Shown: positions 1,800-34,234 of the stretch, piece by piece | Layout: each line of letters starts with the position of its first letter | How positions within the stretch are numbered: the first letter of the stretch is position 1 | NCBI GenBank assembly: GCA_018003015.1 | Contig: JAGNEZ010000055.1 | Span: forward strand, 1-42,212 | DNA: 42,212 bases | Origin: Phycisphaerae bacterium | GTDB taxonomy: Bacteria > Planctomycetota > Phycisphaerae > UBA1845 > PWPN01 | Direction of reading: 5' to 3' | Notes under the pieces: model-generated | Databases searched by the model: none | What the model was told of the DNA's origin: nothing | The model's input: only the letters and a program-made list of their open reading frames with translations | Translations under genes and position numbers: made by a program

Positions 1800-4040
1800 A
1801 TGAGTCGACTGGATAACTTGCCGCCGATCGAACCTCGAAAGCCCGCGGGTCCGCCCGCCGGGTCGGGTGCGGTCGCGGTCATGTCCTCAAGCCTTTTCGA
1901 GATCGCCTGGCGCCGGCGCTGGGTTATTGCCGCGATCACTGTGGCCGCCCTGGCCGCCGCGTTTCTCTACGTCATGAAGGCCACCCCGATCTTCACTAGT
2001 ACTTCGCGCTTGTATGTGGAGCAGGCCGGCCCGCAGATCATGAACGAGCGTGAAGGGATCGTGACCCAGTCCAAGAACTACCTGTACACCCAGGCCGAGA
2101 TTCTCGCCTCCACCCCGATCCTCACCGAAGTGGCCGATCAGTCCACGGTTCGGCGGATGAAGACCTTCGCCGAGGTCGACAATCTCATGGTCTTCCTGAA
2201 GAAGGCCCTGAACGTCAAGGTGGGTGCCAAGGACGACATCATCAGCGTGGCCCTCGACTCACCTTATCCCGAAGAAGCGGCCGGCGTGGTCAACAGTGTG
2301 GTCGAAGCCTATGTGAACTACCAGACCAATCGCAGGAAGAGTACGTCCTCCGAAGTACTCAAGATCCTCCAGAAGGAAAAGGAGAAACGCGACAGCGAAC
2401 TGACCGGCACCAACAAGAAGATCCTCGATTTCAAGATCGCCAACCCAACGTTGACCATCGAGGACGAGCGCGGGGGCAACATCCTGATTCAGGCCCTCTC
2501 CCGCTTGTCGGCCGCCCTGGCCGAAGCCCGAATCACCACGATTAACGCCAAAGCCTCCTATGAGTCCGCCAAACTCCTGTCCTCCGACCCGGAGCAACTC
2601 CAGCGATTCGCCGAGGCCCAGCTCGAACGCGGGGTTCGCATCTCCATGGAGCAGGAGAAGACCCAGCTCACCGGCGAACTCCACCAGCTCGAGCTGCAGT
2701 TGGCCGACTGGCAGCAGAAGGTGACCGCCGATCACCCTGCAGTTCAGACTCTCCAGACCAAGATCGGTCAGCTTCGCGCCCAGATCGAGGAGCAGGGCAC
2801 CAAGACCGCCAAGGATTTCCTGGAGGTTGCCAAGCAGCAGTGGCTGACCGCCCAGCAGGCCGAGAGCGAGATGGACAACGCCTTCAAGGAGCAGCTCACC
2901 CAGGCCCAGCTGGTCAATACCAAGGCAGCGGAGCTGGCCATTCTCACGGCCGACAAGGAGCGAACCGAGAAACTCCTCGACATCCTCGACAGCCGCATCA
3001 AGGAGCTGAACGTCACCGAGGACGCCGGGGCCCTGAACATCAGTGTGCTCGAGGTCGCTCGCCCGGAAGAGAAGCCCAGCAAGCCCCAGAAAGCCCGGAT
3101 CATGGCCATGGCCCTGGTCCTGGGGCTGATGCTCGGCTTCGGTCTGGCCATGCTCCTCGATTGGATGGATCATCGGCTTCGCTCGGCCGACGAGATCTCC
3201 GCCGTACTGGGCGCCCCGGTCCTCGGTGTGGTGCCGACCATGTCGTCCAGGGAATCCCGGACCGAGCGCGGCCAGAAGGCCCACCGCGAGTCGAGCTCCA
3301 CCATCGCCGAGTCCTACCGGACCATCCGCACGGCGATTTACTTCGGGGTGCCCGAAGGCGGTGCCAAGACCATTCTGGTGACCTCGCCCGCGCCGGGTGA
3401 CGGGAAGTCCACTGCGGCCAGCAACCTGGCCATCACCATGGCCCAGGCCGGCCAGCGGACCCTTTTGGTCGATGCCGACTTCCGCAAGCCGATGATTCAT
3501 CAGATCTTCGAGATTGACGATCAGCACGGCCTGTCGTCCGCCCTCGCCGGCCAGTCGACCAACGGATTGGCTATTCAGGCCAGCCAGATTCCTGGTCTCG
3601 ACCTGCTGCCCTGCGGGCCGGTGCCACCCAATCCGTCGGAGCTGCTCAACAGCGAGGCCTTCGCCCAGCTGCTCCGCAAGCTCGCCGCCGACTACGACCG
3701 CGTGGTCATCGACTCGCCGCCGGTCATGCCGGTGACCGATGCTCGCATTCTGGGCGCGCTCTGCGACGTCACCGTCTTGGTCCTTCGCGCCGAGCGGTCC
3801 ACCCGCAAAGCCAGCGAACAAGCTCGTGACGGGCTACTCAGCGTGGGGGCCCGACTCCTGGGCGTCGTGGTCAATGATGTGCCTCGCGGGCGGGACCGCT
3901 ACGGTTACTACGGAGGCTATGGTTACTACGGAGGCTACGGTTACTACGGCCACTACGGAAAGAACGGAGAGGATAACCCGAAGGAACGGCGAAGGGCGTC
4001 TCGGACCGCCGCCCCGACCGAGGGTACGACACAGGCATGA
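1800..4040 (+). CDS. Wzc-like polysaccharide co-polymerase / bacterial tyrosine kinase
   Basis: This inner-membrane chain-length regulator is fused to a BY-kinase domain (746 aa). The N-terminal Wzz domain is bounded by transmembrane segments near residues 42-60 and 435-455, with a long coiled-coil periplasmic part between them. The cytoplasmic CpsD/CapB-type kinase shows Walker A (SPAPGDGKSTAASN, about 527-540), Walker A' (LLVDADFRKP, about 555-564) and Walker B (VVIDSPP, about 635-641). The C-terminus carries a Tyr-rich tail (about 699-720), the usual autophosphorylation site of these kinases. The ATG at 1800 is preceded by a Shine-Dalgarno (TAAGGGG, 1787-1793). The stop overlaps the start of the phosphatase gene by 4 bp, which implies translational coupling of kinase and phosphatase. 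Confidence 0.93.
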   Translation: MSRLDNLPPIEPRKPAGPPAGSGAVAVMSSSLFEIAWRRRWVIAAITVAALAAAFLYVMKATPIFTSTSRLYVEQAGPQIMNEREGIVTQSKNYLYTQAEILASTPILTEVADQSTVRRMKTFAEVDNLMVFLKKALNVKVGAKDDIISVALDSPYPEEAAGVVNSVVEAYVNYQTNRRKSTSSEVLKILQKEKEKRDSELTGTNKKILDFKIANPTLTIEDERGGNILIQALSRLSAALAEARITTINAKASYESAKLLSSDPEQLQRFAEAQLERGVRISMEQEKTQLTGELHQLELQLADWQQKVTADHPAVQTLQTKIGQLRAQIEEQGTKTAKDFLEVAKQQWLTAQQAESEMDNAFKEQLTQAQLVNTKAAELAILTADKERTEKLLDILDSRIKELNVTEDAGALNISVLEVARPEEKPSKPQKARIMAMALVLGLMLGFGLAMLLDWMDHRLRSADEISAVLGAPVLGVVPTMSSRESRTERGQKAHRESSSTIAESYRTIRTAIYFGVPEGGAKTILVTSPAPGDGKSTAASNLAITMAQAGQRTLLVDADFRKPMIHQIFEIDDQHGLSSALAGQSTNGLAIQASQIPGLDLLPCGPVPPNPSELLNSEAFAQLLRKLAADYDRVVIDSPPVMPVTDARILGALCDVTVLVLRAERSTRKASEQARDGLLSVGARLLGVVVNDVPRGRDRYGYYGGYGYYGGYGYYGHYGKNGEDNPKERRRASRTAAPTEGTTQA
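3903..3956 (+). repeat. Three 18-bp tandem repeats encoding the kinase Tyr tail
   Basis: Three consecutive 18-bp units (3903-3920, 3921-3938, 3939-3956) each encode GYYGGY or GYYGHY. The first two differ only at the last base; the third differs at its 3' end. They place at least nine tyrosines in the autophosphorylation tail of the kinase. In-frame tandem repeats of this kind can gain or lose whole units by slippage without breaking the gene. Confidence 0.9.
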
Positions 4041-4864
4041 TCAGTTTCCTCCAGGCACTGACCGCACTCACGGGCAGAGGCCACCCCGCCCAGCAGTTCA
4101 CGGGGGTGGATCTGCACTGCCATGTTCTGCCTGGCCTGGACGACGGTCCTGCCTCCGAGGCCGAGTCGCTGGCTCTGTGTCGGGCCCTGGTGGCGGATGG
4201 CGTCCACACCGTTGTGGCCACGCCTCACCAACTGGGGAAGATGGAGCAGCGATACAGCGCCCTCGATATCCGTCAGGCGGTGACCTACCTGCGGACTCGG
4301 CTTCAGGTCGCGAGTATTCCCCTGGAAGTAGTCCCCGGGGCAGAGGTGCGAATCCATGAAGGACTGCCCGGGCTAATTGATGAGGATGAGGTGCTCACCC
4401 TGGCCGACCGCGGCCGCTGGGTCCTGATCGAGCTCCCTCGCCTCAGCTACATCGAGCCGCTGCCCCTGATTCGGCAGCTCAAGGATGCGGGTATCCGCTC
4501 CATCATCGCCCATCCGGAGCGGCATGTCTGCGTGCAGACTCACCCGCACGTGATCCGCGGCTGGATTGAGGCCGGGGCCTGCATTCAGGTCACCGCCACC
4601 AGCCTGCTGGACCGTCTGGAGGAAGAAGCCTATCGCTGTGCCTGGCGGATGGTCGCCGAGGTGGGTGCCGTGTTGATCGCTTCTGACGCCCACGATGCCG
4701 ATCGCCGCCGGCCACGGTTGTCCGAGGCGTTCCGGGCCGTCGCGCTGCGGATGGGTGAGCGCGTTGCCCGGCGGGTGTGCATCGATCATCCGGCCGACGT
4801 TCTGGCCGGACAGGCTTTGCGACCCGTTTTCGAGACCCCTGCTAGGCAAGAGGCCTCCAGATGA
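4037..4864 (+). CDS. CpsB/CapC-type tyrosine-protein phosphatase (PHP domain)
   Basis: This is a Mn-dependent protein-tyrosine phosphatase of the PHP family (CpsB, YwqE, Wzb analogue), expected to dephosphorylate the upstream BY-kinase. Metal-binding motifs are visible: DLHCH at residues 25-29, ATPH at about 61-64, PGAEVR, AHPERH at about 158-163 and SDAHDADRR starting near 216. The length, 275 aa, is typical. The ATG overlaps the kinase stop codon (ATGA), and its own stop overlaps the next gene in the same way, so kinase, phosphatase and polymerase form a coupled translational unit. A phosphoesterase of other specificity is possible in principle, but the neighbours argue strongly for this role. 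Confidence 0.92.
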   Translation: MISFLQALTALTGRGHPAQQFTGVDLHCHVLPGLDDGPASEAESLALCRALVADGVHTVVATPHQLGKMEQRYSALDIRQAVTYLRTRLQVASIPLEVVPGAEVRIHEGLPGLIDEDEVLTLADRGRWVLIELPRLSYIEPLPLIRQLKDAGIRSIIAHPERHVCVQTHPHVIRGWIEAGACIQVTATSLLDRLEEEAYRCAWRMVAEVGAVLIASDAHDADRRRPRLSEAFRAVALRMGERVARRVCIDHPADVLAGQALRPVFETPARQEASR

Positions 4865-7650
4865 CCACCCTCACCACGCACCACAGATCTGAGCGCGCCG
4901 CCGCCCATCACCGGTCGACGATACCGGTCGAGCCGGTCGCGAGCCCCCTCGACGGCCTGATCGAGTTGATCCTGATCGGCCTGCTGGCGTTCATGCCCCT
5001 GGCCTTCGGGGCGGTCGAGGCCTGGAGCGAGCTGGTCATCCTGGTTGCCGCGGTCGTCCTGGCCGGGTGTGTGGCTCTGCGGTTCATGATCACGCGTGAG
5101 GTTCGGCCGGTCTGGAGCTGGACCTACGTGCCCATGGCCCTGTTCGTTCTCCTGGTTGCCCTGCAGCTCGTCCCGTTGCCGGCTCGTGTCGTCCAGGCCA
5201 TCGCTCCGCACACCGCGGCCACCCGCACCCAGCTCCTCGCCGATCTGCCCGATGCGTCACGAGTGCTCGACACCATGACCTTGAGCTTCTATCCGCTGGC
5301 CACGGCCCACAACCTTCGCCTGATCCTGGTCGTGTGTGTCGTGTATCTCACCGTGGTCAACGTCATCCGCCGCCCCGAGCAGATCAAACGCCTGCTGGCC
5401 GCGGTCGCGGCCATCGGCGGGGCCGTCACGCTCATCGCCCTCGCCCAGACCATCACCGGGACTGATTCCATCTACTGGTCTGTCCCGACCGGCGGCAAGT
5501 ACGCCGACGCCGGTCCGTTCATTAACCACAGCCATTTTGGTCAGTTCACCAACCTGGCCATCGGCGCGGCGTTCGGCCTGGCCCTGCTGCTGGTCTACGA
5601 GAACTTCCGCGGCATACCCTACACCCCGGCAGCGGTCATGGACCGGCTCGGCGAGCCCAAGCTCCGGCCCTTCTGGGCCCTGGTGACGATGATGGTCCTC
5701 GGTGTCGCCAGCGTTTTCACCTCGCTGACCCGCGGCGGTATGATCACAATGCTGATCGCGGCCTCTTTCACCGTGCTGGTCCTGTCCAGCAAGCGCGGCC
5801 TACGCGGCGTCCGCTGGTTGATCGCGGTCATCTCCCTGGTCGCCTTCTGCGTCGTGCTCTACGTCGGGTTCGACGCGGTCTATGACCGGCTCGCCACTCT
5901 CCGCGAGGTGGACCAGGCCCAAAGCGGCCGGCTGCAGATCCTCAAGGACATCGCCCTCGCCTGGACCCAGTTCCCACTGTTCGGCACCGGCCTCGGCACC
6001 CACGAGGTCGTTTACCCCATGTTCGAGCATTCGAGCATCACCCATCTGGCCGGCCACGCCGAAAACGAGTACGCCCAGCTCGCTGAGGAGACGGGCATCC
6101 TTGGCCTCAGTTGCGCGGTGGTTTTTCTGACGCTGGTCTGGTCGAGCTATGTTCGCAGCATCCGCCGGCTCCGTCCCTCGATTCGCTGGGTCGCGTTTGG
6201 CCTGGGCTTCGGCCTGCTGGCGGTCATGCTCCATAGCCTGAGCGACTTCGGCCAGCACATACCCGCGGTCATCTGCCTGTCGGCGGTGACCTGCGGCCTG
6301 CTCGTGGTGCTCGCCCGCATGCGCCACTCCGAGGATCCCCCGCGTTCGCCGGGCCTGCTCCAGCGCTTGGTCGATACCCGGGTCGCGCCCATGGCCGCCC
6401 TGGTACTGGTCGCCGTGGGCGCCGCCTGGTCGATCCCCGCTGCCCTGCGGGCCAACGACGCCGAGTCCTCCTGGCGGATCGCGGCACGCATGGAGAACAA
6501 GCTCCGCGACGACGATTGGATCGGCACCAACGATCAGTTCGCCATCCTCATCAATCAGGCCGCCCAGGCGGCGACGCTCGAGCCGGCCAACGTCAAGTAC
6601 CGCTACAACCTGAGCGTCTTCCGGTGGCGGGCGGTCAGCCGGGTGATCAACCCGGACACCGGCGAACTGGTGCTCAACGACCAGTCCATCCGCCACACCG
6701 AGCGGATCGTCGATGAGCTCCACCAGACCCGGCCGGTCTGCCCGGCGTACGGGCCGGTCTATGCCCTGCTCGGCCAGCTGGAGTGTTTCATCCTCAACCG
6801 GCCGGCGGGTGCCGACCGGGTCCGGCTTGGGGTCAAGCTCGCTCCGAACGATGCCACCGCCTGGTACTCCGCCGGCCTGCTCGAGGCCGAGTCAGACCGC
6901 CCCGAAGCGACCGACGCGGCAGGCAGGGCCTTCGCGAGGGCCATTGAGCTCGACGGCTCACTCATGGTCGATATCGCTGATGTCTGCGTCGCCAAGCTCG
7001 GCCGGCCGGATCTGGCCGTCACCCTGGCCGGCGACGACGTGGGTCGCCTGACCGCCGTCGCCGACGTACTCGAGGACTACGCAACGGTCAACGATCAGCC
7101 TCAGCCGCCAGCGATCAGCAGTCAACCAGCCGGAGCCAGCACTCAGCCGTCAGTAGTCAGCACCCAGCCTTCCGAGGTTGGAGCTGACGGCCGACCGCTG
7201 GCCGCTGAGAGCTCGCCTCGTGAGCACCGCGTGCCCGCTGAGAGCCTTGCCCTTGCCGAACAGGCGAGAGCGAGAGTTTTCGATCTACTGAAAGCCAAGT
7301 GCGAAGGCCCGGACGCCGAGGCCAGCACGCTTGCCGCCTTTGCCAACCTGTGCATCAAGCGAAAGTCCGATAAGCAGGGCATCGATTATTACTTCAAGGC
7401 TTTACAGTTGGATTACGGCCAGGTATACTGGCGATTTGCGCTGGCCCAGGCGCTGGGCCGCGTGGGAGACACGGAGGAGGCCCTCAAGCAGGCCAAGATC
7501 TGCCTTCGTCTTCGACCAGACTGGCCGCCGGCCAAGAAGTTGGCTGGCGATCTGAGCATCGCTCCGGCGGGTAAGCCGTTTGGTGTGCCCGCGAGCGCCC
7601 CTGCGACGCAGCCGGCGATGGCTCCGGCGAGTGCGCCGAGCGCCAAGTAA
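4861..7650 (+). CDS. Wzy-like O-antigen polymerase/ligase with C-terminal TPR region
   Basis: A large (929 aa) multi-spanning membrane protein. Hydrophobic segments fill residues about 30-530, including the O-antigen ligase/polymerase (Wzy_C) region near 285-420 with SLTRGGMITMLIAASFTVLV and GTGLGTHEVVYPMF..HAENEYAQLAEETGILGL. The last about 380 residues are soluble and look like TPR units (NVKYRYNLSVFRWRA, APNDATAWYSAGLLEAESD, IDYYFKALQLDYGQVYWRFALAQALGRVGDTEEALKQAK). A low-complexity linker at about residues 745-790 is encoded by a period-7 DNA repeat. The C-terminus is Ala/Pro-rich. The gene overlaps the phosphatase stop (ATGA). Polymerase and ligase cannot be told apart from sequence alone; the EPS context favours polymerase. 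Confidence 0.85.
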   Translation: MTTLTTHHRSERAAAHHRSTIPVEPVASPLDGLIELILIGLLAFMPLAFGAVEAWSELVILVAAVVLAGCVALRFMITREVRPVWSWTYVPMALFVLLVALQLVPLPARVVQAIAPHTAATRTQLLADLPDASRVLDTMTLSFYPLATAHNLRLILVVCVVYLTVVNVIRRPEQIKRLLAAVAAIGGAVTLIALAQTITGTDSIYWSVPTGGKYADAGPFINHSHFGQFTNLAIGAAFGLALLLVYENFRGIPYTPAAVMDRLGEPKLRPFWALVTMMVLGVASVFTSLTRGGMITMLIAASFTVLVLSSKRGLRGVRWLIAVISLVAFCVVLYVGFDAVYDRLATLREVDQAQSGRLQILKDIALAWTQFPLFGTGLGTHEVVYPMFEHSSITHLAGHAENEYAQLAEETGILGLSCAVVFLTLVWSSYVRSIRRLRPSIRWVAFGLGFGLLAVMLHSLSDFGQHIPAVICLSAVTCGLLVVLARMRHSEDPPRSPGLLQRLVDTRVAPMAALVLVAVGAAWSIPAALRANDAESSWRIAARMENKLRDDDWIGTNDQFAILINQAAQAATLEPANVKYRYNLSVFRWRAVSRVINPDTGELVLNDQSIRHTERIVDELHQTRPVCPAYGPVYALLGQLECFILNRPAGADRVRLGVKLAPNDATAWYSAGLLEAESDRPEATDAAGRAFARAIELDGSLMVDIADVCVAKLGRPDLAVTLAGDDVGRLTAVADVLEDYATVNDQPQPPAISSQPAGASTQPSVVSTQPSEVGADGRPLAAESSPREHRVPAESLALAEQARARVFDLLKAKCEGPDAEASTLAAFANLCIKRKSDKQGIDYYFKALQLDYGQVYWRFALAQALGRVGDTEEALKQAKICLRLRPDWPPAKKLAGDLSIAPAGKPFGVPASAPATQPAMAPASAPSAK
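7097..7224. repeat. 7-nt-phased degenerate repeat inside the polymerase gene
   Basis: The stretch can be cut into consecutive 7-mers with a recurring core. From about 7097 to 7170 the core reads as CAGC/TCAGC (for example CTCAGCC-GTCAGTA-GTCAGCA). From 7183 it switches to the opposite-strand form (GCTGACG at 7183, GCTGAGA at 7204). Seven bases times three codon positions gives a 7-residue protein period: SSQPAGA, STQPSVV, STQPSEV. GCCGTCAG (7146-7153) and CTGACGGC (7184-7191) form a short inverted pair. The same heptad class lies in the following intergenic region. Confidence 0.75.
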
Positions 7651-7669: not shown

Positions 7670-7998
7670 GCTGAGAGCTGAGTGCTGATGGCCGTCGCGT
7701 CGAGGGCGTGCCTGGCCCGCTTCCTTCTCCCTTCCCTCCCTTCGCAAGGGGGGCTTAAGGGGTCGGCAGTGGGGTAGCCGCGTTCGGCGTAAGGTGAGAG
7801 GATCGAATGTGCTCCGGCTGAATGCTGAGTGTTGATGGCTCACAGGTTCGACGAGCGCGAGGCAGGGAGTAGGGATGCTCTCCGGTTTCTGACAACTGAG
7901 CGCTGACAGCCATCAAGTGTGCCAAGCGCCAAGCAGGCAGCGCGAAGGATGAAGGACGAAGCACAGGAGCTAAGAAGCCAAGTTGGAGTCTCGAGTTG
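7670..7998. repeat. Intergenic 7-nt-phased degenerate repeat tracts
   Basis: Several runs of consecutive related 7-mers occur. GCTGAGA-GCTGAGT and GCTGATG lie at 7670-7690. GCTGAAT-GCTGAGT and GTTGATG lie at 7817-7837. ACTGAGC-GCTGACA lies at 7895-7908, GCCAAGC-GCCAAGC at 7921-7934, and ATGAAGG-ACGAAGC at 7949-7962. Between runs the 7-nt phase is only loosely kept. The pattern resembles the heptanucleotide STRR repeats known from cyanobacteria. A short related run (GCTGAGA-GCTGATC, then GCTGAAA) lies at 34193-34213, before gmd. Confidence 0.7.
7735..7753 (+). terminator. Possible hairpin after the polymerase gene
   Basis: CCTCCCTT and AAGGGGGG can pair as an 8-bp stem (one U-G wobble) around a CGC loop, 85 bp after the polymerase stop. 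No U-run follows, so intrinsic termination is not shown. It may be only part of the repeat-rich intergenic sequence. Confidence 0.25.
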
Positions 7999-14660: not shown

Positions 14661-14731
14661 GTTTTAGGACGCACTCTAATACTACAACGCTAAGAAAGCT
14701 CAAGAAACGTTATGCGACCAGCCGATGGGAG

Positions 14732-14750
14732 GTTCGAGTGGAACTCGAAC
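14732..14750 (+). promoter_or_regulatory. Hairpin upstream of the IS701 transposase ribosome-binding site
   Basis: GTTCGAGT (14732-14739) and ACTCGAAC (14743-14750) form a perfect 8-bp stem with a GGA loop. The stem ends 2 nt before the transposase Shine-Dalgarno AGGAGG (14753-14758). In several IS families a hairpin near the start limits translation from read-through transcripts. Here the Shine-Dalgarno itself is not in the stem, so such a role is inference. The second copy carries the same structure at 30560-30578. Confidence 0.5.
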
Positions 14751-14766
14751 ACAGGAGGTCATGGGC

Positions 14767-16227
14767 ATGGACGCCGATACGATTCTCCGGATCAAGCCTG
14801 CTTTGACTGAATACCTTCACCAGCTTGACGGATTGATGGGACGGGTCACCAACCGCAGCCATCTGAACCGGTACGTCAGTGGCCAGCTGAGCGACTTGGA
14901 CCGCAAGAGCATCGAACCGATCGCGGACGCTGCCGGTGTCCCGCCACGCACGCTTCAGGAGTTTCTGAGCATGCTGGTATGGGACGAATCTGGGGTTCGG
15001 GATGAAATTCAGCGTCAGGTGGCCCGTCGACACGGCCATCCCGACAGTGTTGGCATCATCGACGAGACGAGCTTTCCCAAGCAAGGCACCAAGACCGCCT
15101 GCGTTCAGCGGCAGCACTGCGGAGCACGGGGCAAGATGGATAACTGTGTGGTCAGCGTTCATCTGGGGTATGCCGCCGGGGAGTTTCACACGCTGCTGGA
15201 CGGCGATCTTTTCTTGCCCGAGCACACCTGGGATGCGGATCGTTCCCGATGCCGGGCGGCGGGGATACCCGACGATGTGGTCTACCGCTCCAAGTGGCAG
15301 ATCGCCCTCGAACAGATCCGGCGTGCCCTGGGCAACGGCGTCCGGTTCGCCTGGCTGACCTTCGATGAAGGGTACGGCGGAAAACCCCCGTTTCTGAGGG
15401 CCTTGGACGGTCTGGGCCAAAACTATGTGGGCGAGATTCCCGCCAGTTTCGTGGGCTGGACTCGTCCACCGGAGATCCTGTACCGTGAGCACGGTCGAGA
15501 CCAAGGCAAAGGACGGCCCCGAAAGCTGCCCCGCCTGAAGGTTCGCAACACGCCGGCGGCGGAAGTGCGGAACATCCTCGCCCACTCGCCGGTCCTGCGG
15601 CGGATTCCCTGGGAGAAGTTCCACGTCAAGGATGGCGCCAAAGGGCCGATGGTTTGGGAGGTCAAGCGTATCCCGCTGTGGATCAAGGACGAGAATGGGC
15701 TGCCGTCCCGCCCTCATCACCTGCTGATCGCCCGCAATACCCTGGCTCCCAAAGAGGTCAAGTTCTTCCTGAGCAACGCTCCGGAGTCCACGTCCGTGGA
15801 ACTGCTGCTGCTCGTGGCTTTCAGCCGCTGGCGGATTGAGCGGCTCTTCGAAGACAGCAAGACGGAACTGGGGATGGATCACTTCGAGGTCCGCAAGTAC
15901 ATCTCGATCCAGCGACATCTGATCCTGACCTGTGTGAGCCATCTGTTTCTGGCGGAGTTCTGGCTGGCCCATAACGACAAAAAAAACGGAGCTGACTTGG
16001 TGCCAGGTGCGGACCGCCACCCGGTCGCTCGTTCCCATGTGGTATCGCGGTGGCCGTTGCTCTCGGAAGCAGGCCGAGATCATCGCCGCGCAATTGACGA
16101 TAACACAGGCCCGCAACGCGGCAGCTCGACGCTCGCACCGAAAGCGAACTCTATGTCGTTTACACAGGATGGGCATATACTTGACCAGCATACGGCGTTG
16201 CCAATGGCCCGATCGTTAGCGTTGTAG
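14767..16227 (+). CDS. IS701-family transposase (copy 1), C-terminus in a shifted frame
   Basis: This DDE transposase catalyses movement of its own IS. The start at 14767 (MDADTILRIKP) is chosen because AGGAGG lies 8 nt upstream; the ATG at 14761 is too close. Likely catalytic positions are D99 (GIIDETSFPK), D200 (WLTFDEGYGG) and E362 (ERLFEDSKTELGMDHFEVR). After the A8 tract at 15979-15986 the zero frame gives an implausible tail ending at 16227. The frame one base further on gives the family-like C-terminus (ELTWCQVRTATRSLVPMW, QAEIIAAQLT, ARNAAARRSHRKRT) and stops at 16219. Either slippage on the A8 produces the full protein, or the gene is frameshifted. Confidence 0.9.
   Translation: MDADTILRIKPALTEYLHQLDGLMGRVTNRSHLNRYVSGQLSDLDRKSIEPIADAAGVPPRTLQEFLSMLVWDESGVRDEIQRQVARRHGHPDSVGIIDETSFPKQGTKTACVQRQHCGARGKMDNCVVSVHLGYAAGEFHTLLDGDLFLPEHTWDADRSRCRAAGIPDDVVYRSKWQIALEQIRRALGNGVRFAWLTFDEGYGGKPPFLRALDGLGQNYVGEIPASFVGWTRPPEILYREHGRDQGKGRPRKLPRLKVRNTPAAEVRNILAHSPVLRRIPWEKFHVKDGAKGPMVWEVKRIPLWIKDENGLPSRPHHLLIARNTLAPKEVKFFLSNAPESTSVELLLLVAFSRWRIERLFEDSKTELGMDHFEVRKYISIQRHLILTCVSHLFLAEFWLAHNDKKNGADLVPGADRHPVARSHVVSRWPLLSEAGRDHRRAIDDNTGPQRGSSTLAPKANSMSFTQDGHILDQHTALPMARSLAL
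15979..16219 (+). other. A8 slippage tract and shifted-frame transposase C-terminus
   Basis: Eight A residues (15979-15986) precede about 75 codons that continue the transposase in the +1 frame and end in a TAG inside the right terminal repeat. The product matches the basic, Arg-rich ends typical of IS701 transposases far better than the zero-frame tail does. Loss of one A in the transcript, or +1 ribosomal shifting, would join the frames. The copy at 31807-32047 is the same. Confidence 0.65.
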
Positions 16228-16291
16228 TACTAAGTGAGCACCGGAAGAACGGCTTGCCGTTCGAGGTAACCTACTTCGTTAGGATGCTCGT

Positions 16292-30507: not shown

Positions 30508-32057
30508 TACTACAACGCTAAGAAAGCTCAAGAAACGTTATGCGACCAGCCGATGGGAGGTTCGAGTGGAACTCGAACACAGGAGGTCATGGGCATGGAC
30601 GCCGATACGATTCTCCGGATCAAGCCTGCTTTGACTGAATACCTTCACCAGCTTGACGGATTGATGGGACGGGTCACCAACCGCAGCCATCTGAACCGGT
30701 ACGTCAGTGGCCAGCTGAGCGACTTGGACCGCAAGAGCATCGAACCGATCGCGGACGCTGCCGGTGTCCCGCCACGCACGCTTCAGGAGTTTCTGAGCAT
30801 GCTGGTATGGGACGAATCTGGGGTTCGGGATGAAATTCAGCGTCAGGTGGCCCGTCGACACGGCCATCCCGACAGTGTTGGCATCATCGACGAGACGAGC
30901 TTTCCCAAGCAAGGCACCAAGACCGCCTGCGTTCAGCGGCAGCACTGCGGAGCACGGGGCAAGATGGATAACTGTGTGGTCAGCGTTCATCTGGGGTATG
31001 CCGCCGGGGAGTTTCACACGCTGCTGGACGGCGATCTTTTCTTGCCCGAGCACACCTGGGATGCGGATCGTTCCCGATGCCGGGCGGCGGGGATACCCGA
31101 CGATGTGGTCTACCGCTCCAAGTGGCAGATCGCCCTCGAACAGATCCGGCGTGCCCTGGGCAACGGCGTCCGGTTCGCCTGGCTGACCTTCGATGAAGGG
31201 TACGGCGGAAAACCCCCGTTTCTGAGGGCCTTGGACGGTCTGGGCCAAAACTATGTGGGCGAGATTCCCGCCAGTTTCGTGGGCTGGACTCGTCCACCGG
31301 AGATCCTGTACCGTGAGCACGGTCGAGACCAAGGCAAAGGACGGCCCCGAAAGCTGCCCCGCCTGAAGGTTCGCAACACGCCGGCGGCGGAAGTGCGGAA
31401 CATCCTCGCCCACTCGCCGGTCCTGCGGCGGATTCCCTGGGAGAAGTTCCACGTCAAGGATGGCGCCAAAGGGCCGATGGTTTGGGAGGTCAAGCGTATC
31501 CCGCTGTGGATCAAGGACGAGAATGGGCTGCCGTCCCGCCCTCATCACCTGCTGATCGCCCGCAATACCCTGGCTCCCAAAGAGGTCAAGTTCTTCCTGA
31601 GCAACGCTCCGGAGTCCACGTCCGTGGAACTGCTGCTGCTCGTGGCTTTCAGCCGCTGGCGGATTGAGCGGCTCTTCGAAGACAGCAAGACGGAACTGGG
31701 GATGGATCACTTCGAGGTCCGCAAGTACATCTCGATCCAGCGACATCTGATCCTGACCTGTGTGAGCCATCTGTTTCTGGCGGAGTTCTGGCTGGCCCAT
31801 AACGACAAAAAAAACGGAGCTGACTTGGTGCCAGGTGCGGACCGCCACCCGGTCGCTCGTTCCCATGTGGTATCGCGGTGGCCGTTGCTCTCGGAAGCAG
31901 GCCGAGATCATCGCCGCGCAATTGACGATAACACAGGCCCGCAACGCGGCAGCTCGACGCTCGCACCGAAAGCGAACTCTATGTCGTTTACACAGGATGG
32001 GCATATACTTGACCAGCATACGGCGTTGCCAATGGCCCGATCGTTAGCGTTGTAGTA
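30508..32057 (+). mobile_element. IS701-family insertion sequence, copy 2 (1,550 bp)
   Basis: Same length and orientation as 14680-16229, and identical wherever I compared, including all translated products. It is flanked by the 4-bp direct repeat TTAG (30504-30507 and 32058-32061), again a YTAR-type target. The upstream hairpin and the A8 tract are conserved. Its right end lies 37 bp before vapB. Confidence 0.92.
30595..32055 (+). CDS. IS701-family transposase (copy 2)
   Basis: The coding sequence appears identical to copy 1, with the same AGGAGG 8 nt before the chosen ATG and the same DDE positions (D99, D200, E362). The A8 tract is at 31807-31814. The family-like C-terminus again continues in the +1 frame, to a TAG at 32045-32047, rather than in the frame that ends at 32055. 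Because both copies share the feature, it either predates the latest transposition and is compatible with activity, or both derive from a copy mobilised in trans. Confidence 0.9.
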   Translation: MDADTILRIKPALTEYLHQLDGLMGRVTNRSHLNRYVSGQLSDLDRKSIEPIADAAGVPPRTLQEFLSMLVWDESGVRDEIQRQVARRHGHPDSVGIIDETSFPKQGTKTACVQRQHCGARGKMDNCVVSVHLGYAAGEFHTLLDGDLFLPEHTWDADRSRCRAAGIPDDVVYRSKWQIALEQIRRALGNGVRFAWLTFDEGYGGKPPFLRALDGLGQNYVGEIPASFVGWTRPPEILYREHGRDQGKGRPRKLPRLKVRNTPAAEVRNILAHSPVLRRIPWEKFHVKDGAKGPMVWEVKRIPLWIKDENGLPSRPHHLLIARNTLAPKEVKFFLSNAPESTSVELLLLVAFSRWRIERLFEDSKTELGMDHFEVRKYISIQRHLILTCVSHLFLAEFWLAHNDKKNGADLVPGADRHPVARSHVVSRWPLLSEAGRDHRRAIDDNTGPQRGSSTLAPKANSMSFTQDGHILDQHTALPMARSLAL

Positions 32058-33239: not shown

Positions 33240-34196
33240 ATGCCCATCGATTTCACTCGTGACCGTTTCGTCGTGACCGGCGGGGCCGGATTCCTCGGCT
33301 CCTTTCTCTGCCAGAAGCTTCGCGCCCGCGGCGTGACCCCCGACCGGCTCTTCGTCCCGCTCATCGAAGACTACGACCTCACCCGCGAGGCGGATGTCGA
33401 GCGGCTATACGCGACGGCCCGGCCCGATGTGGTCATTCACCTCGCCGCCCAGGTCGGCGGCATCGGGGCCAACCGGGCCAACCCCGGCCGGTACTTCTAC
33501 GCCAACATGGCCATGGGCCTGCATCTCATCGAGCACGCCCGCCGGAATGGCACCAAAAAATTCGTCCAGGTGGGCACCATCTGCGCGTACCCCAAGTTCA
33601 CTCCCCTGCCCTTCCGCGAGGAGGAGCTCTGGAACGGCTATCCCGAGGAGACCAACGCGCCCTATGGCGTGGCGAAGAAGGCCCTCCTGGTCATGTGTCA
33701 GGCCTACCGCCAGCAGTATGGACTCAACGCGGTCTACCTCCTGCCGGTCAATCTCTACGGCCCGCGCGACAACTTCGACCTCGAAACCTCGCACGTCATC
33801 CCGGCCCTGATTCGCAAGTGCATCGAGGCTCGCGACGCCGGGGACGATCGAGTGGTCTGCTGGGGCGACGGCTCGCCCACCCGCGAGTTCCTTTACGTCG
33901 AGGACGCGGCCGAGGGGCTGGTCCTGGCGACAGAGCGGTACGACCAGCCGGGCCCGGTCAACCTCGGCTCTGGCCGGGAGATCAGCATCTGCAATCTCAC
34001 CGAGCTGGTCGCCCGGCTGACGCGGTTCACGGGCCGGATCGAGTGGGATACCACTCAGCCCAACGGCCAGCCGCGGCGCTGTCTGGACACCACCCGCGCC
34101 CGCGAGCGCTTCGGCTTCACCGCCGGCACGGACTTTGAGGAAGGTCTTCGAAAGACAATTGGGTGGTACGAGCAGCATCGCCAGGCTGCCCGCTGA
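33240..34196 (+). CDS. fcl: GDP-L-fucose synthase
   Basis: This short-chain dehydrogenase (318 aa) converts GDP-4-keto-6-deoxy-mannose to GDP-L-fucose by epimerisation and NADPH reduction. It shows the nucleotide-binding [48 protein letters not shown], the YxxxK pair in APYGVAKK and [20 protein letters not shown], all close to the GMER/Fcl family. A Thr stands where the E. coli enzyme has its catalytic Ser, a common variant. The ATG at 33240 gives the normal N-terminus; the open frame upstream is not family-like. It is followed 38 bp later by gmd, the preceding step of the pathway. Confidence 0.94.
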
Positions 34197-34234
34197 GAGC
34201 TGATCGCTGAAAACTCATTGAGAGGAAGCAATTC

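Follow-up and report, generated by a model that had tools for sequence, protein, structure and literature searches.

Essentially the whole of a 52-codon linker inside an O-antigen ligase/polymerase (Wzy_C) gene is made up of seven-base units from a family that is dispersed through the genome. The gene lies in the stretch of DNA analyzed here (the window; 42,212 nucleotides, contig C55 of a 6.86-Mb Planctomycetota genome), and we consider it probable that a dispersed, outward-facing heptad element became part of it at a tolerant loop. Arrays of this family keep a fixed polarity toward the edges of coding sequences, and the copy inside the gene has changed length in frame and has lost a potential TGA in both species that carry it.

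The gene (plus strand, 4861–7650) encodes a protein of 929 residues with a PF04932 match at residues 277–419 (Pfam, E = 5.8e-19) and a C-terminal TPR-like helical region; its assignment is further supported by full-length orthologues across the class. A CpsB/CapC-like gene lies on one side and an epimerase gene on the other. Elsewhere in the polysaccharide region, two identical 1550-bp insertion-sequence copies in the same orientation (14680–16229 and 30508–32057), which carry a DDE_5 transposase, terminal repeats (TACTACAACGCTAA) and apparent 4-bp target duplications (CTAA and TTAG), flank about 14 kb. An 18-nt tandem repeat at 3898–3969, at the 3′ end of a Wzc-like chain-length/kinase gene, encodes a tyrosine-/glycine-rich tail (RYGYYGGYGYYGGYGYYG) that resembles the tyrosine cluster known from tyrosine kinases of bacteria.

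The linker spans 156 nt of the plus strand (7084–7239, residues 742–793), in near-exact overlap with the heptad element, which covers the same positions and has a repeat edge reaching 7245. The insert is two-armed, with a TCAGC arm, a short spacer and a GCTGA arm. In the TCAGC arm (plus strand, 7088–7168), recognized from the sequence and from lag-7 statistics, units of the form (T/C)CAGCNN run along the coding strand with the register (T/C)CA(G)C at 7088, 7095, 7101, 7108, 7115, 7122, 7136, 7143, 7150, 7157 and 7164, broken by a 6-nt step between 7095 and 7101. This orientation is stop-free; on the minus strand, the same arm reads as GCTGANN arrays at 7099–7126 and 7134–7161. The GCTGA arm (plus strand, 7183–7210; GCTGACG GCCGACC GCTGGCC GCTGAGA) has units starting at 7183 (GCTGA), 7190 (GCCGA), 7197 (GCTGG) and 7204 (GCTGA). 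A preliminary description had already read CAGC-type heptads followed by GCTG-type ones in the coding sequence, and both are present, in the registers 7088–7164 and 7183–7204. The 7-residue peptide period that it reported is likewise found in the translation (SSQPAGA, STQPSVV, STQPSEV); it follows from 7 × 3, and Tandem Repeats Finder (TRF) returns a period of 21 with 3.6 copies at 7095–7169. Only one unit of the GCTGA arm, that at 7190, is able to put a TGA in frame (7192–7194). Position 7192 is a C in both sister species, where a T would create the stop, so that the reading frame is kept.

Identity at lag 7 across 7097–7224 amounts to 0.504; averaged over the window it is 0.252 (sd 0.046). 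Values are also high at lags 14, 21 and 28, but not at lags 5, 6, 8 and 9. In this autocorrelation, which had been suggested as a check, the top-scoring 128-nt stretch of 830 kb of the genome starts at 7082, and none of 20,000 codon shuffles reached the value for 7097–7224. The unit consists of a 5-nt core and two nearly free bases (NNRCTGA). An unbiased search of the 830 kb for three consecutive heptads in which five or more columns are constant returned no perfect triplet. Of 122 pairs of adjacent units, 20 (16%) have the same two variable bases, where chance predicts 13%, so that whole-unit duplication is not recent. A simple tandem expansion of the STRR type, the comparison drawn in the preliminary description, is not supported for these arrays.

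The close relatives of the protein come from metagenome-assembled genomes (MAGs) of Planctomycetota/Phycisphaerae. The linker is missing altogether from two orthologues in Phycisphaerae that share 50% identity over 826 residues. Reliably aligned orthologues across the class have 7–12 residues in the linker columns, where the window protein has 60 and that of the sister species 47; the exceptions are L249, with 17 residues, and L260, with 47 unrelated ones. These alignments, also suggested earlier as a check, show the linker as a derived insertion at the level of sequence comparison. As the nearest linker-free orthologue is only 50% identical, they do not separate insertion from stepwise growth in place. 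No target-site duplication was seen at the insert. A gene-fusion origin was considered and rejected, since orthologues without the linker run continuously across the site.

The Wzy protein of the sister genome (G294), which is identical to that of the MAG RA.bin145, shares 93% identity with that of the window and carries the array at the same site, with in-frame indels of 6 and 33 nt. The array is common to both species and is therefore not recent. The 33-nt difference (7202–7245, plus strand) corresponds to the step between two copies of CCGCTGAGAGC, at 7202–7212 and 7235–7245, of which pairwise alignment finds one in the sister. Identity between the two proteins is 64% in the linker (25/39) and 96% in the remainder (819/857; p = 4e-9), which shows, as far as a two-species comparison of sequences goes, that the linker is under relaxed constraint. 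An AlphaFold model gives a pLDDT of about 26 at residues 746–791, between helices at 727–745 and 793–814 with pLDDT of about 70–89; the model was built from four input sequences, and its quality is poor outside these flanking helices (mean pLDDT 48). The linker is accordingly predicted to be a disordered loop between TPR-like helices, and together with the linker-free orthologues this is consistent with the earlier proposal that the repeat entered a tolerant linker. The 3′ ends of the two genes also differ (about 4230–4323 of L025 in the sister, 7629–7650 in the window), in that the sister gene carries an additional block of ~113 nt where its stop codon lies and encodes an alternative C-terminus.

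Related arrays occur outside the gene. Downstream of it, on the plus strand, lie GCTGAGA GCTGAGT GCTGATG (7670–7690), which has one extra 7-nt unit in the sister, GCTGAAT GCTGAGT GTTGATG GCTCACA (7817–7844), which is orthologous there, and a weaker array, TCTGACA ACTGAGC GCTGACA (7888–7908), for which the sister has GCTGACA GGTGAAC GCTGACA. Related runs had been said to fill this intergenic DNA; the arrays are there, but three short ones in 728 nt hardly fill it. The run said to reappear before gmd is an array at 34185–34212 (plus strand; GCTGCCC GCTGAGA GCTGATC GCTGAAA), which overlaps the preceding gene's stop and ends 22 nt short of the gmd start. Genome-wide, the pattern GCTGANNGCTGANNGCTGA occurs as 13 perfect-core triplets, with none for the reversed control, and at 61 places with one mismatch allowed, with one for the control. 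GCTGA-type units are the main product of the unbiased heptad search of the 830 kb, in which segments of period 7 outnumber those of periods 5, 8, 10, 11 and 13; rates for this genome rest on these 830 kb plus the loci of pattern matches. Most arrays are intergenic (35/42), and six of the seven within coding sequences have the stop-free TCAGC on the coding strand. Across the phylum, GCTGA-type arrays were found in 49 of 294 sampled Planctomycetota genomes.

Further heptads are present in the genome of the window, G000 (GGAGAAT, GTGAGAA, AGGCGAG and CGAAGGA), some of them near CDS edges; examples lie at C2:99848–99878, C1:110694–110714 and C1:260720–260752 and at 7943–7961 of the window. Three units of the reversed control AGTCGNN gave 12–14 matches each in G242, G105, G131 and G221, which indicates that the phylum has additional heptad families in which two bases are free. 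Single GCTGA pentamers are not enriched before start codons in this genome, where AGGAG is the commonest upstream pentamer; the idea that the heptads generally replace the Shine–Dalgarno sequence was rejected on these grounds.

Comparison of the sister species gives some insight into how the arrays evolve. Length differences between orthologous intergenic arrays include 7- and 14-nt steps, compared with the 6 and 33 nt within the gene. This finding, with the dispersal of the same heptads in this genome and its sister, bears out the part of the preliminary description that proposed a comparable repeat class in the lineage. Over all 43 arrays, divergence is 15.2% in the core, 25.4% in the two variable bases, 22.7% in intergenic flanks and 7.6% in coding sequence. 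The sequences suggest some selection on the heptad core; changes involving the consensus comprise 72 losses and 30 gains, however, so that the low core rate is partly an effect of ascertainment. Strong purifying selection was rejected, because the values that had pointed to it (9.3% against 16.5% for intergenic DNA) came from sister loci selected for their arrays.

The arrays are oriented with respect to genes, a property that the preliminary description had missed, as it had the outward-facing inverted arms that abut CDS edges. From the 3′ end of the GCTGA strand, the median distance to the CDS edge is 19 nt ahead and 114 nt behind (27/33, p = 3e-4), with CDS edges and gene starts predicted by a purpose-written gene finder. 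Within 30 nt, there is an edge ahead of 21 of the 33 intergenic arrays and behind only one. The edge ahead is either the start codon of a gene on the same strand or the stop codon of one on the opposite strand, and 15 of the 18 arrays that read toward a same-strand gene end at most 27 nt from its predicted start. In 20 Planctomycetota genomes, the order TCAGC arm–GCTGA arm gave 120 matches and the everted order 5, in a tally that includes overlapping matches. Inverted pairs are few in this genome, where most intergenic arrays are one-armed; at one orthologous junction mainly the start-side arm is present here and mainly the stop-side arm in the sister, a pattern suggesting that one-armed loci have arisen from two-armed ones by reduction. 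A distinct arrangement is seen in G011 (L164–L176), where about 20 dispersed palindromes of ~80 bp, with four to five GCTGA heptads per arm and a common AT-rich centre (TTATTATTTTTATTAATATT-like), occur in both orientations; 17 of 19 lie between tandem genes.

Taken together, these results would be explained most simply if the family consisted of imperfect NNRCTGA arrays that normally occupy intergenic positions, with arms facing outward to the flanking CDS edges. Before this species and its sister diverged, one two-armed copy would have joined the Wzy gene, where a surface loop connects two helices in the TPR-like region. It probably did so through a junction-type element that inserted or expanded, rather than by de novo origin. 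The stop-free TCAGC orientation and the disordered loop may have made it tolerable, the linker itself presumably having no function in the protein, and the in-frame state would have been kept partly through the loss of one TGA. Persistence of an inverted-repeat element in short intergenic gaps is the most economical reading, and its core may be kept by selection on a motif acting at the nucleic-acid level or by the copying mechanism.

Other origins have to be weighed against this one. The palindromes could be MITE- or REP-like elements mobilized by a transposase, the Wzy copy being an insertion of one of them, an alternative that we regard as somewhat unlikely. Copies of such elements have their whole sequence in common and carry terminal inverted repeats and target duplications; here a centre common to the copies was seen in G011 only. 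The alternative is favored by the G011 copies, with their common centre and two orientations, and by the outward arms within short intergenic gaps, but the palindrome spacers look unrelated in G198 (of the same class) and G188, similarity in this genome exists at the level of units only, and neither a target-site duplication nor an associated transposase was identified. Unlikely as well is an STRR-like heptanucleotide microsatellite that expanded within the gene by replication slippage, the mechanism usually put forward to explain heptamers (PMC4679880, PMC4692102), and has decayed since. Intergenic copy number does differ between the sisters by 7 nt, and the GGAGAAT and GTGAGAA heptads of this genome would fit such a process. 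Slippage copies whole units, however, and neither the chance-level matching of neighboring variable bases nor the lack of perfect triplets in 830 kb agrees with this; outward-facing arms and edge polarity are not predicted either.

A role in RNA was considered in two forms, in which a UCAGC…GCUGA hairpin between tandem genes either joins stop and start in translational coupling or marks mRNA ends, the in-gene copy being a by-product in both; even jointly we hold these to be quite improbable. Hairpins predicted at junctions in G188 and G011 are very stable (z −5 to −8), and some palindromes occupy the full gap from stop to start codon. Against this, palindromes also sit between divergent and convergent genes, one-armed loci predominate in this genome, and the everted arm order, which would fold equally well, is nearly absent. 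Covariation of variable bases across the arms was looked for and rejected, pairing being no better than in shuffled sequences (32 against 41 ± 5). The heptads might instead be protein binding sites, in which a short core is recognized at 7-nt spacing. The omega repressor of pSM19035 provides an analogy, with contiguous 7-bp WATCACW sites in direct or inverted layout and a 5-bp core; the analogy extends to the fixed core, the free spacer bases and the direct or inverted layout seen here, and the core has changed less than the spacer between the sisters. The omega heptads are bound by a ribbon–helix–helix protein at plasmid promoters and centromeres and are unlike GCTGANN in sequence, whereas here no candidate protein is known, the adjoining genes are unrelated, and the core/spacer contrast is in part ascertainment; this explanation therefore seems a long shot. 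Membrane proteins of bacteria often contain low-complexity linkers, and a plain Gln/Pro/Ser linker could in principle acquire a DNA period through a coincidence of codon usage. The codon shuffles, the identical heptads in neighboring non-coding DNA and genome-wide, and the lack of a counterpart in other orthologues leave this hardly credible. The incorporation of a dispersed element thus remains our preferred reading of the Wzy linker.

The Wzy heptads are a new member of a class of heptad repeats that is known from bacteria but still lacks an explanation. Like the STRRs of cyanobacteria, in which one fixed heptamer is repeated in tandem with perfect or nearly perfect copies, they have a seven-base period and are dispersed; the STRR label, which requires perfect tandem copies, was rejected because no all-constant triplet was found in 830 kb. 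The closest published parallels are instead two other families. Rehm et al. (2015) described GGGAATC/GGGANTN heptads in Xanthomonas and GGGGA(C/T)T in Nostoc, which have conserved and variable positions, lie mostly in intergenic DNA, almost exclusively by one CDS edge (0–50 nt from it) regardless of gene direction, and form 70–75 inverted pairs; G-quadruplexes were proposed, and a function was not found (PMC4692102). GGGANTN and GCTGANN share a period of seven in which roughly five positions are conserved and two vary, a polarity to the nearest CDS edge that is independent of gene direction, inverted pairs in a fixed order, variation in length between related species and the lack of a functional gene class. 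The GCTGA/TCAGC core differs in having no G run, so that G-quadruplexes cannot explain these arrays, which are also from another phylum, shorter and less perfect. A three-frame TGA insulator was rejected as the basis of the polarity, because GATTCCC of Xanthomonas is stop-free and yet has the same polarity (PMC4692102); neither quadruplexes nor stops therefore explain what the two families have in common.

The second parallel is provided by the exact TAACTGA repeats of Beggiatoaceae, Cyanobacteria and Bacteroidetes (MacGregor, 2015; PMC4679880), which lie just before start codons, are reversed inside ORFs at protein peripheries and show 7-nt indels between relatives. NNRCTGA shares with them the period, CTGA in the same orientation, the 7-nt indels and the forward placement upstream of starts with mainly reversed copies within ORFs. 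The TAACTGA copies are exact, whereas NNRCTGA has two free positions, and the doublet TAACTGATAACTGA is absent from the 6.86-Mb genome. According to surveys with SPADE (PMC6344855) and of LSSR (Mrazek, 2007, as cited in PMC4679880), intergenic heptamer arrays, of unknown function, outnumber all other short tandem periods in many prokaryotes; the portions of these surveys considered here do not describe the GCTGA core, the polarity in Planctomycetota or the Wzy coding insertion. A literature search for heptanucleotides in Planctomycetes returned no papers. New in the present case are the GCTGA core, its presence in 49 of the 294 genomes sampled from the phylum, the outward two-armed design and a documented coding insertion.

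It is conceivable, and we propose it only tentatively, that one sequence-independent process makes or selects heptads with unrelated cores across phyla (GCTGANN in Planctomycetota, GGGANTN in Xanthomonas and Nostoc, TAACTGA in Beggiatoaceae), giving them a common architecture of period seven, fixed core and free bases, and outward arms at CDS edges, often as inverted pairs. If so, G-quadruplexes and three-frame stops would be excluded as its cause, since neither fits all cores. A new core in a new phylum that keeps the gene-edge polarity without quadruplex potential counts against the published structural explanation. The Wzy case would represent a dated natural experiment, in which a heptad element has been turned into 52 residues of a membrane polymerase, and the pattern of orientation and lost stop shows how heptad repeats are filtered by coding constraint.
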